A stretch of 64,000 nucleotides of DNA from an uncultured bacterium (GTDB lineage Bacteria; Patescibacteriota; Gracilibacteria; Absconditabacterales; Absconditicoccaceae), in assembly GCA_947170225.1 (NCBI GenBank), contig CAMVSQ010000004.1:1-64000 (forward strand), read 5' to 3'. Within the stretch, counting starts at the first letter, position 1; the number at the start of each line of letters is the position of its first letter. The notes beneath the pieces were generated by a model. That model made no database searches and had not been told where the DNA came from. It was given only the letters and a program-made list of their open reading frames with translations. The position numbers and the translations under genes are program-made. Below, in pieces: positions 55,686 to 59,978 of the stretch.

Positions 55686-55717
55686 AAAAAACGATCTTTT
55701 TGAGGGATCGTTTTTAT
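55686..55717. terminator. Intrinsic terminator between convergent genes
   Basis: aaaaacgatc pairs with gatcgttttt around tttttgagg; the right arm overlaps the truD stop region on the minus strand, and it can serve both genes. Confidence 0.8.
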
Positions 55718-56934
55718 TTTATTAGTGGAATTTCTAGTCAATTTTCGATGATGGTTTTGTCATCGATTCAATTCAAAATAGTTCAAAGAAAAATTGTGGC
55801 ATAGCTACCAGTTGGCAGAGAAAATGAGAGAGTTAAATCATTGTTTTCATTTCGCTCATATTTCAGTCATTTTGGTTTAGTCCACAGTGGTCTACGAAAT
55901 CAGTAGATATTGTACTTTTTTGCGGTTTTGATTCATAAATTTTCAAAATTAGTTTCTTGCAAAAGTTCATTATCTTTTATTCGTGATTTTGTATCCAGTG
56001 GAGGAGTTAGTAAGTTAAACCCAAGCATTGGTCCTGTTGGTTGCCGTCATGGCTTGTTTTTTGTTATGTCTACAATCTCTCCGCTCAAGTAATAAGGTTG
56101 AATTAAATTTTTTCATTCAAATTCAGCTTTGCATTTTTCATAATTGAAAAGTCAAACTTTTCATTCATTGTAAATTCAGACCTTTGTCTCGTAATTATTG
56201 CTATTTACCATAATATCTCATCACAAAAAGATTTGTCATTTTTGTCGTCTTTTGATTGTGTATTCATTGAAGTACATACTAGCATAGGCTTGTAGTTTGA
56301 AACGGATTTCGAAATCATCAGTTTTGGATTTTTTATGTCATTTTGAGGAACGAAGTGACGAAGAATCTAAATTAGATCCTTCGTTTTCGCTCGGGATGAC
56401 ATTATTGTCTGATTCAAAAATTTCTTTTGCACGATAAAAGTTTCTGTACCCTTTCCCAAATCTCTGTTTCCCAAAACAGTTTGGAAATCAATTTTTTAAT
56501 ATTTTATCAATATTTGAGTCTATTTTTTCTTTGATTTCTGGGGTAATTTCTTTTTTTGCTTCTAATCTGATTTTGAAGTAATTTCATGCATTTTTTCAGA
56601 CTGCAAGTGGTTCATTGTGCTGAGCCGTCTCCAAAATTGTAGCTTTTTGGCTCAAAACGTCTAGAAATTTCTGCTCTCATCAAATCCTATTTAATACCTT
56701 TTTGTAGATTGAAATTCGTTGCTCAGTAATTCAATTTTTGTCTTTTAATCCGGCTATCCCAAGTTCTTTTCTCTCCAATTTCATAGCATAGCAGAGGTGC
56801 TGGACAATGTCCATTGTGTTGATTTCTGTTTTTTGAAAACGAACAAAAAAAACATCTCATTTTCCATTTGGTTTAAATCAGAGTTCTTCTTTGACTATAA
56901 AATCTTCTGGCTTTGTCTTGAATTGGAATAACAT
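55714..56934 (-). CDS. truD: tRNA pseudouridine synthase TruD, with a translated repeat insert
   Basis: 406 residues. TruD makes pseudouridine-13 in tRNA(Glu). The catalytic aspartate lies in GIAGLKDKNGITEQ (D about 65) and NGFPNCFGKQRFGKGYRNF carries the conserved FG-QRFG pattern; the last part with FRRPLGTKPKGL and PTGSYAT also fits. Residues about 177-199 (DNNVIPSENEGSNLDSSSLR...) are encoded by a family A palindromic repeat (56338-56402), lying in the region of the insertion domain. Several TGA glycines occur. The gene stands next to DUF1653; the AT-rich spacer follows upstream. Confidence 0.92.
56338..56402. repeat. Family A palindromic repeat inside truD
   Basis: Begins tcattttgaggaacg and ends ggatgacatt, with inner arms gaagaatct/agatccttcg. 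Read in frame on the minus strand without any stop codon. Second clear case, with the U32 gene, of this element inside a protein-coding frame. Confidence 0.85.
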
Positions 56935-57046
56935 AATAATTAAGAATTAATAATTAATAATGAATAATTAATAATTAAGGATTTTTGTCTTTTATTCAAT
57001 GAAGATTTATTTATAGTGTATTTTGTTTTATTATTACTTAAAATAA
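56935..57046. other. AT-rich spacer between truD and the DUF1653 gene
   Basis: Contains near-tandem units of attaataattaagaattaat at 56938-56980. No gene is visible; the promoters of the divergent genes must lie here. Confidence 0.5.
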
Positions 57047-57277
57047 ATGTGAGAAAGAAATATAGAAATTTGAGCTACATATAGGCATTTTAAATGAAAT
57101 GACTACAAGGTACTTGCAGTAGCAGAGCATACAGAGACTTGAGAGATGTTGGTGATATATCAAGCACTATATTGAGAATTAAAAGTGTTTGCTAGACCCT
57201 ATGATATGTTTATGAGTGAAGTTGATCACGAGAAATATCCAGAAATTAAGCAGAAATATAGGTTTGAGAAGTGTTAA
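57047..57277 (+). CDS. DUF1653 family protein
   Basis: 76 residues: [32 protein letters not shown], then [12 protein letters not shown], the family pattern. DUF1653 proteins are small cytosolic proteins of unknown function. All five glycines I count are TGA, in sharp contrast to the radical SAM gene that follows on the other strand. Stop codons of the two converge 39 bases apart around a terminator. Confidence 0.88.
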
Positions 57278-57285
57278 ATTTTTTT

Positions 57286-57310
57286 ATCAAAAAAGGGGCT
57301 ATTCGCCCCT
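57286..57310 (-). terminator. Intrinsic terminator of the radical SAM gene
   Basis: On the minus strand, aggggcgaatagcccct is followed by ttttttg. Placed 6 bases after the stop codon of the radical SAM gene; it also faces the DUF1653 gene. Confidence 0.75.
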
Positions 57311-57315
57311 GTGGG

Positions 57316-58596
57316 TTAAGATTGATTGAAATTCGTAGCCATTTCCTGAGTTAGACCATAATGAATGGCTCTTCTTTTGTATCTGCGGCTCAGCTTTGAG
57401 TTGCCGGTTCGTTTGTAATACAAGAACATGTAATAGAGCATATTTGGTTCATTTTTTCTATGGAAGCTCTCAAATATTTGTTGTATGAGCATTTCATTTC
57501 TGATGAAGTTGTCATATGCTGTATTATTTTTACTTTCACAATATTCGTCGTGTAGATGGATGTTTTCGTTGAGTAATCTTATCCATTTATTAGTATCTTC
57601 CCATTCATCAGATTTGTCCAAGAAATCTTTTTTCCAAGCGGGGCAACCACCGGAACATCTTTTTTTGTGAGGACAAGTTGAACATTTGGGGAACAGGTCT
57701 GGAGTGCCAAATTTATGATCTATGACATTCAATACCCATCCGTTTATGTCGTAGATGGATGAAAACATGTCTAGATTTTCATTGGTCTTGTGGAAAACTG
57801 TGCATTTGCTGACCTCCAATTCAGGAGAGACACATAGCGGGCCACCACCACAAGCACATGATTTTATTCCTTCTGGAACGCGTTGGTTGTGTGTGACAAA
57901 CCATCCAATTTGCTTTTCAGTAAAGAAACAGTAGGGAATTCGGCAGTCCAAGTTTACTTTGATACTATTCGCATGACATTTTTGGATAAATTTGAAGACT
58001 TTTGGGGAGAGCTCCTTGTATTGTTCTGGGTGAACAATATTGGGGTTATCGCTACCATATACTGGACTTGCTATAGCAAATCTAAGATGGTCAATCCCAA
58101 ATTTCTTGGCGGTGTCAATAATTTCATCTCCGTTGAAATCTAAGGATGCAATGTTATATCCTAATCCAACTTGGAAATATTTTTTGTCAACCATTGTTTT
58201 CAGATTTTTGATTACAAGGTCGTATGCAGATTCTGTAGCATATGTTTTTTTCTCGTTCAGATTTAAACATATTTCTACATTACCAGTACCGTTTAGCAAT
58301 TCGAGATTTTCTGTCGGAAAGATTCCACCAGTAAAAATGATGAAATCATCGACTAGTTTTTCTTTGCTGCTTTTGATTTTTTTGATAAGCCATCCTAAAT
58401 TTTTGTAAAGGAACGGCTCACCACCCATGATGTTCAATTCAGAAAGTGGCCTTTTGATTGATTTTCTGTTTCTTCGAAGAAATTCAATGAATTTGATGGC
58501 GTTTTCTTCGGAGAGTTCTGTCCTGCTTTGCATGAATTCTTGAGCAAAGCAATAAGGGCAGTTGTTACCACATTTTTTTGTTACAAATATGTTCAT
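57316..58596 (-). CDS. Radical SAM/SPASM domain enzyme without TGA-Gly codons
   Basis: 426 residues. The radical SAM cluster motif is CGNNCPYC (Cys 9, 13, 16), followed by NIMGGEP (SAM-binding GGEP) near residues 55-61. The C-terminal part has a SPASM/twitch set: CACGGGPLC, SKCTVFH, CSTCPHKKRCSGGC. This class modifies peptides (as in sactipeptide and anSME enzymes) or carbohydrates. All 24 glycines are GGN and none is TGA, while flanking genes use mostly TGA; base composition is less AT-rich too. That points to recent transfer from a standard-code organism. No peptide substrate gene was found nearby. The gene is bounded by its own terminator. Confidence 0.9.
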   Translation of the reverse strand: MNIFVTKKCGNNCPYCFAQEFMQSRTELSEENAIKFIEFLRRNRKSIKRPLSELNIMGGEPFLYKNLGWLIKKIKSSKEKLVDDFIIFTGGIFPTENLELLNGTGNVEICLNLNEKKTYATESAYDLVIKNLKTMVDKKYFQVGLGYNIASLDFNGDEIIDTAKKFGIDHLRFAIASPVYGSDNPNIVHPEQYKELSPKVFKFIQKCHANSIKVNLDCRIPYCFFTEKQIGWFVTHNQRVPEGIKSCACGGGPLCVSPELEVSKCTVFHKTNENLDMFSSIYDINGWVLNVIDHKFGTPDLFPKCSTCPHKKRCSGGCPAWKKDFLDKSDEWEDTNKWIRLLNENIHLHDEYCESKNNTAYDNFIRNEMLIQQIFESFHRKNEPNMLYYMFLYYKRTGNSKLSRRYKRRAIHYGLTQEMATNFNQS

Positions 58597-58686
58597 AGTG
58601 TTTAGAATTTTGTTGATTTCTTTTTATTTTAGAAGTAAATTATAAACAATTATACGAAAAAGTCAATATTTATAAAAATATAGTTT

Positions 58687-59370
58687 TTATATTATTCCAT
58701 ATTTAAACTCTACACCATCTCACTCTTTACGAAAAAAAGTAGCCGTTTTTTCTAAATTTACTTTATTCAAATCATATTTTCAAACTCTAATTCTCCTAAG
58801 ATTAGTCAAAATTCCACCAATTCAAAGTTGTTCTCCTAATCGATGTCAGATTGATCTGATATATGTTCATGATCAGACATACAATTTTAATTTTAAAGTA
58901 GGAAAATTGTATTCCAAAATCTCGTATCAATATGTCTTCATGAGTTTATTTTCAATGATTTGATTTCAATTTCTCGCTAATTCATAAAGTTTTTTCCCAT
59001 CTTTTTTCTTTGCACTAAATGGTGTGAGTGGAAGTTCTCATTCTGGTATGATTGAGTCTAATTTTTCTTTGATTTGTTCAATTGAAACTTTCTTTCATTT
59101 TACATTTATTTCTTCAAAATATTCTCGATAGTCCATATCTCGAGTGTCAGATTTTTTGGAAAAATCGATAATAGTTTCATATGTCTTGTCTAATCAAATT
59201 AAACTATTTAATTGTTTTGTGTCATTTCAAGTTCATATCAAAAGTAGTCAGGTTGCCATTGGATCCAGTGTTCCACTGTGTCAGATTTTCTTTTCTTTTA
59301 GTTCTCTTTTGAGTGCGCGGATGACATCAAAGCTACTGATTCATTTTGGTTTATCTGCGATAATGAGCAT
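58687..59370 (-). CDS. truB: tRNA pseudouridine-55 synthase
   Basis: 227 residues. Makes pseudouridine-55 in the T-loop of tRNAs. The N-terminal core is LIIADKPKGISSFDVIRAL, the catalytic motif GHSGTLDPMATGLL (Asp36), followed by DKTYETIIDF; YIRSIGHRLGEQLG corresponds to the conserved YIRSLARDLG region. Shorter than E. coli TruB (314), lacking the C-terminal PUA domain, as in many small genomes. Most glycines are TGA. Single gene, divergent from the padR gene. Confidence 0.93.
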
Positions 59371-59522
59371 AGTTTATATTTAAGAAATAATGATGAATAT
59401 CTTATAATGAAAATTGATTTATTTGGAATAGAATTTTCAAAATCTCTTGAAATCGTTATAAAAAAATATAATACTATGTTATACAAGGTACTGATAAAAT
59501 TTAAATATCTAATTCAAACCTT

Positions 59523-59849
59523 ATGTGAGAAGCTGAAAAAATTACCACTCAGATGAAAAAATGAATACTGGAATATCTTATTCTTAGTATTATTTCAAAA
59601 GGGGATGTATATGCAAATGATATAATTACAAAGCTAAAAAAAGCAAATCTGATTGTAGTTGAATGAACAATGTATCCCTTACTTTCTCGCTTGAAAACCG
59701 AAAAATTGCTAGAATATGTACGAGTTGAGTCTGTTCAATGACCGCCCAGAAAATATTATAGGCTTACAAAGAGAGGAAAGGAGACTTTGGATGTGATGCA
59801 TCAAGTTTGGAAATGATTGACAAATAGTGTAAATCAGATTGTTAAATAA
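59523..59849 (+). CDS. PadR-family transcriptional regulator
   Basis: 108 residues: winged helix with KKGILEYLILSIISKGDVYANDIITKLKKANLIVVEGTMYPLLSRLKTEKLLEY (middle shown in part), the PadR signature, then a C-terminal helix for dimerisation. PadR proteins repress genes until a ligand or membrane signal is present. It lies 129 bases upstream of the HAAS/PspC gene and would regulate it. TGA glycines in GILE and GTMYP. An upstream TATAAT is at 59467-59472. Confidence 0.92.
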
Positions 59850-59857
59850 CACTTCGT

Positions 59858-59942
59858 GTCATTCTGAATGATATAACGAAATGAAGAATCTTAAGTGTAT
59901 TACATTTTATACCTAAGATTCTTCGCTCTCGCTTAGAATGAC
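59858..59942. repeat. Family A palindromic repeat
   Basis: gtcattctgaatg...agaatgac with inner arms aagaatctta/taagattctt. It lies between padR and the HAAS/PspC gene, so it would form a long hairpin in the transcript between them and could act as a partial terminator. Confidence 0.85.
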
Positions 59943-59978
59943 AATAAAAAATACTTTTATACTAATTATCCCACAAAA

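Follow-up and report, generated by a model that had tools for sequence, protein, structure and literature searches.

We find that the genome of an uncultured member of the Absconditicoccaceae carries a radical SAM/SPASM gene that very probably arrived recently, as a single-gene import from a source in which TGA is read as stop. The gene occupies positions 57316..58596 on the minus strand of the window, the whole 64,000-nucleotide stretch of DNA that was analysed, and encodes 426 aa from an ATG start to a TAA stop codon. Its 24 glycines are written GGT (12), GGA (8), GGC (3) and GGG (1), with 0 TGA, so the codon count of the ORF agrees with the original prediction that all of them would be GGN. 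Since the gene uses only GGN and ends with TAA, both codes yield the same protein from it. A recent transfer from a standard-code source had been proposed from the missing codon; to this are now added the lack of an orthologue found in the bacterial family, an insertion between the conserved neighbours truB and truD, and an outlying composition, from which we infer the direction and the recency of the transfer.

In the genome (G000, 953 kb, of which 919 kb were covered by the codon scan), TGA makes up 61.3% of glycine codons. At this rate, the binomial probability of finding 0/24 TGA in the radical SAM gene is 1.2e-10, and a stricter test on GGA alone, the codon one mutation from TGA, still gives P(0/8) = 1.4e-5. 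Thus the earlier statement that chance would hardly produce such a gene was borne out. Per-gene glycine counts over the same 919 kb, a check proposed with the original prediction, placed it in a group of only 7 genes with zero TGA, out of 534 that encode 12 or more glycines. Both GC and GC3 of the gene are high (97-98th percentile), and it prefers GGT to GGA while the host does the opposite (p=0.016). Codon selection could be put forward instead, acting on a native gene so that TGA was lost or is avoided, given that the TGA share of native genes ranges down to about 0.2-0.4. However, strongly expressed genes keep the codon, with 26 of 48 glycines in GroEL (54%) and 14 of 36 in EF-Tu (39%), so high expression does not explain a TGA-free gene; together with the foreign composition and the orthologue that was not found in the family, this leaves a native origin scarcely credible.

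The reassignment of TGA to glycine is supported by a tRNA with anticodon UCA (L248:10895-10968), which ARAGORN labels SeC under the bacterial code and which, at 74 nt, is too short for tRNA-Sec. In the 919 of 953 kb scanned, only tRNA-Gly(UCC) and the UCA tRNA were seen and none with GCC; GGT and GGC nevertheless make up 15 of the 24 glycine codons of the radical SAM gene.

The genes around it are written in the host manner. Upstream lies truB (58687..59370, minus strand) with TGA at 16 of 23 glycines, and downstream lies truD (55714..56934, minus strand) with 23 of 34; both are native, conserved neighbours of the insertion. Between them, the DUF1653 gene (PF07866; 57047..57277, plus strand) writes five of five glycines as TGA. 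The counts for truB, described beforehand as mostly TGA, and for the DUF1653 gene, described as entirely so, were both as stated. In several genomes of the family truB and truD are adjacent, with a gap of 31 bp in G022, whereas a DHFR gene separates them in the same-genus genome G001 and a serine-hydrolase-like gene does so in G004. The radical SAM gene is missing from the truB-truD intervals of all three genomes, and the interval acts as a hotspot of gene insertion. Repeats at the insert borders were short and imperfect, and none was counted as a mobility signal.

The borders of the insert, which are gene-precise, also bear on the idea that a foreign piece was joined into the contig during assembly or binning. 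The assembly consists of 24 contigs with an estimated contamination of 2.2%, and composite MAGs are known from this group (PMC6550520). On the other hand, what is inserted is a single complete gene, the contig around it is 73.9 kb long and has TGA-using genes on either side of it, several more TGA-free genes are placed likewise on other contigs, and in other relatives this interval is occupied by single genes of other kinds. We therefore consider an artefact very improbable.

The imported gene could form its own transcription unit, as suggested by a near-consensus promoter-like site and a tight hairpin. The promoter-like site, TTGACT-16-TATAAT (58639..58666, minus strand), lies upstream of the start codon with 11 of 12 matches; it was the best of 36 sites found against 26 expected, so that the match is weak by itself. 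The terminator-like hairpin, AGGGGC-GAATA-GCCCCT followed by TTTTT (57294..57310, minus strand), lies 6 bp past the stop codon and was the top terminator-like match in the region, where 6 sites were found against 1.6 expected. No Rfam matches were obtained in the window. A short palindromic element, GAAGAATCT / AGATTCTTC, was noticed by eye in two copies at window positions 56340-56410 and 59855-59945, one within truD and the other after a padR gene.

When the radical SAM protein was searched against 35 genomes of the same family, including same-genus G001, no match was found at E<=0.001. A profile search of the family recovered one divergent homologue, in G006, with TGA at 12 of 22 glycines; the others were short, weak matches. 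For the timing, we used conserved glycine sites in four orthologues common to G000 and G001 (71% amino-acid identity). Among the sites that are non-TGA in G001, 19 of 42 (about 45%) read TGA in G000. With such a turnover in flanking genes, a long-resident gene would be expected to carry some TGA, and the probability that a gene resident since the G000/G001 split kept 24 non-TGA sites is about 5e-7. The conversion rate is an upper estimate, because it was obtained from pairwise differences and is thus overstated; at half this rate, the probability of zero TGA since the split is still about 0.002. In the scenario that we propose, the gene would have come from a standard-code bacterium or its phage and entered between truB and truD after the split from the nearest sequenced relative. 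Written with GGN and TAA, it would have been readable at once under either code, and its GGA codons would have had too little time yet to drift to TGA.

A single-protein search of genome contigs and viral contigs with the radical SAM protein gave no matches, and relatives were recovered with degenerate-pattern scans built from narrower alignments, the broad alignment having given no usable pattern. The enzyme family was found in Acidobacteriaceae, Clostridia, Gastranaerophilales, Chloroflexota, Bacteroidales and many viral contigs. None of the scanned relatives qualified as a donor candidate: the best identity was about 28%, and the radical SAM protein sits on a long branch. In the tree, the TGA-using homologues of the class, with 4-18 TGA per gene, group apart from it in a clade of their own (100/100). 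The first tree likewise had a 51-row set that includes the radical SAM protein and shuts out the TGA-using homologues (96/80), although long branches meet there. The best tree joining the protein to the recoded clade was 16.8 log units worse, yet an AU test did not reject a position as sister to this clade (p=0.16; p=0.051 with G006). Support had been sought in a nesting inside a non-CPR clade, and a grouping with TGA-containing homologues was named as what would count against the transfer. The protein does fall outside the TGA-using clade, but its long branch joins no donor clade, and the tree thus gives the transfer partial support. The nearest tree row depends on sampling, being first the Bacteroidales row L114 and then Acidobacteriaceae, with a viral contig also near. 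A Bacteroidales donor, indicated by L114 as tree sister (90/93), was discarded after a match was found in that genome only among 395 Bacteroidia genomes.

The donor could also belong to the same class and use the standard code, instead of being a distant bacterium. Two genomes of the class, G045 and G054, hold distant homologues, and we had considered them as recoded genomes until their surrounding genes proved free of in-frame TGA under code 11. However, these homologues are only 22-23% identical to the radical SAM protein, no nearer than those of unrelated phyla; on the family profile they reach about 90 bits, where most bacterial members from other classes obtain 240-300. A donor within the class is thus quite improbable, and a standard-code source beyond it remains our preferred reading.

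The radical SAM gene is not the only one of its kind. The other zero-TGA genes with at least 12 glycines are single genes, mostly flanked by TGA-using ones, and several lie on other contigs. They include a thymidylate synthase (C10:11012-12046, L232; compare L281:5067-6098) with 24 glycines and a secreted protein with a C-terminal T9SS sorting domain (PF18962; C7:15423-16472, L227) with 36. Also in this set are a protein whose signal peptide resembles that of the T9SS-domain protein (15 glycines), a lipoprotein (19), a GNAT-like protein (16) and one of 207 aa (12). Besides the T9SS-domain protein, the TGA-free secreted proteins are those encoded at C1:127147-127623 (L237:7147-7623) and C2:88439-89836 (L241), of which the former shares the signal peptide MKKLI.LL..GWMSMT with it. 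Since T9SS sorting domains are a hallmark of Bacteroidota, a source in that phylum is indicated for at least the gene that encodes one, and the common signal peptide suggests that these secreted proteins are putative Bacteroidota imports. A read-through of a former TGA stop was sought in the imported genes, and none was convincing.

The thymidylate synthase, which exists beside a second, TGA-using one in the same genome (C1:73037-73861), failed as a clean recency control, as TGA-free copies occur in other genera. Its relatives show 78% identity in G004, which belongs to another genus, and 57% in G011. The G004 gene stands at a different locus and its third positions are saturated, while truB of the same genome pair is full of TGA; this pattern agrees with recurrent import out of a standard-code pool, and also with a phage-borne pool held free of TGA by selection. 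The G011 copy is weaker evidence, because its longer ORF in code 25 contains 2 TGA and its surroundings are generally low in TGA.

If the radical SAM gene belonged to such a pool, mobile and under selection against TGA because of its passage between standard-code and recoded hosts, the missing codon would be a sign of code compatibility and not of recency. CRISPR spacers tie phages without in-frame TGA to hosts among the Absconditabacteria and Gracilibacteria (PMC10746230), many members of the enzyme family are on viral contigs, and the TGA-free copy of thymidylate synthase in G004 could be read in the same way. Against this, no phage gene was recognised beside the radical SAM gene, the tree joins it to no phage copy, and the separate loci and saturated third positions of the thymidylate synthases are also explained by repeated standard-code import. 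We regard a selected phage pool as improbable, if less so than a donor within the class, and continue to favour a recent import. The code-11-compatible phages of these hosts resemble our case in having genes without in-frame TGA that are functional in both codes; they differ in being whole phage genomes, whereas our case is one gene in a chromosome, with no phage gene recognised next to it (PMC10746230).

Gene import into Absconditabacteria is already known, and the useful part here is the absence of TGA as an import marker with a rough date. In the Absconditabacteria example Vampirococcus lugosii, 126 imported genes were reported (PMC8080830), which had diverse donors and likewise entered a genome with TGA=Gly. 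Those imports were found by trees, unlike ours, which was recognised by an absent reassigned codon and an empty site in a relative and could be roughly dated. Arguments have been made on both sides as to whether stop-codon reassignment isolates a lineage genetically (PMC8080830), and a limited literature search found no paper that lists or dates imports in these bacteria by a missing reassigned codon. We tentatively suggest, as a idea with somewhat less than even support, that the reassigned codon acts as a clock and a one-way gate, with TGA-free single genes entering ready to use from standard-code neighbours, including Bacteroidota. If so, later drift from GGA to TGA would lock the imports in, and TGA=Gly genomes would hold a readable, roughly datable list of them. 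With about six further TGA-free genes of its genome, the radical SAM gene is a case in which standard-code genes evidently do enter. An absent reassigned codon combined with an empty site in a relative is a simple test that is applicable to all TGA=Gly genomes, and such lists may name the donors of recent imports, perhaps the bacteria on which these cells live.

As to its function, the protein is likely a radical SAM/SPASM enzyme, as judged from its relatives and its fold. It would cleave SAM to generate a radical on a peptide or a repeat-rich protein, and its SPASM part would hold auxiliary Fe-S clusters. The CX3CX2C motif of the superfamily is present as C9-x3-C13-x2-C16, and PF04055 (Radical_SAM) scores 36.2 bits, above its cut-off of 29.5. 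A SPASM-type CX2CX5CX3C motif, C305-x2-C308-x5-C314-x3-C318, is found in CSTCPHKKRCSGGC at 305-318, while the SPASM model TIGR04085 stays below its cut-off (24.8 bits vs 27). Across 22 sequences, C249, C305, C308 and C318 are invariant and C265 and C314 nearly so, and from about residue 319 the chain continues as a helical C-terminal extension. The AlphaFold model (mean pLDDT 80.7) has its nearest folds in SuiB, TigE, viperin, SkfB and anSME, with SuiB at the top. In bacteria and phages, relatives of the enzyme often adjoin Y/S-, H/G/S- or C-rich repeat proteins or small putative precursors. From the fold, the cysteines and this context we infer a peptide- or protein-modifying enzyme, possibly an orphan. 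The original prediction of a peptide- or sugar-modifying enzyme is accordingly narrowed by homology to peptides or proteins, but no substrate was found at the locus: there was no precursor candidate among ORFs of at least 30 aa in 56900-59600, and the precursor family of the class is absent from the genome.

The missing precursor would also suit a metabolic or viperin/MoaA-like radical SAM enzyme, as would the N-terminal part, which weakly matches viperin (42.9 bits) and MoaA (39.3 bits), and the high rank of viperin structures in the fold search. These scores, however, are far under the cut-offs of 180 and 284, the SPASM-type cysteines are there, SuiB is the top fold match, and relatives adjoin precursor-like proteins, so that we judge this reading unlikely. 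Other family models also fell below their cut-offs, namely SCIFF (48.8 bits vs 425), PapB (35.7 vs 340), HxsB (20.8 vs 370) and HxsC (22.4 vs 267.9).

A peptide-modifying enzyme would have known counterparts in the maturases SuiB, TigE, SkfB and CteB, with which it shares a radical SAM core and SPASM-type cysteines; among known structures, SuiB and TigE come closest to its predicted fold (TM about 0.5). Unlike them, it begins right at the radical SAM core, ends in the helical extension and lacks a precursor next to it, and at 16-20% identity it reaches the cut-off of no curated family. The neighbourhoods of its relatives recall HxsB/HxsC with HxsA, and TvgB, a radical SAM enzyme acting on a repeated TVGG motif (PMC9062424), in that the enzymes adjoin repeat-rich proteins; it differs from HxsB/HxsC in its low model scores and in that no such partner is present in the genome. 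In recoded members of the class the partner protein is weakly HxsA3-like (24.1 bits vs a cut-off of 65). At L161-L165 and L016, from such members, the family enzyme adjoins a protein of 136-174 aa that combines a conserved DESGKITKKDA leader with H/G/S repeats, a pair whose glycines are mostly written TGA and which is a candidate new peptide system. On the viral contigs L022, L023 and L053, the enzyme comes directly after Tyr-rich or YSDHTNTGY-repeat proteins, which are possibly modified structural proteins of the phages.
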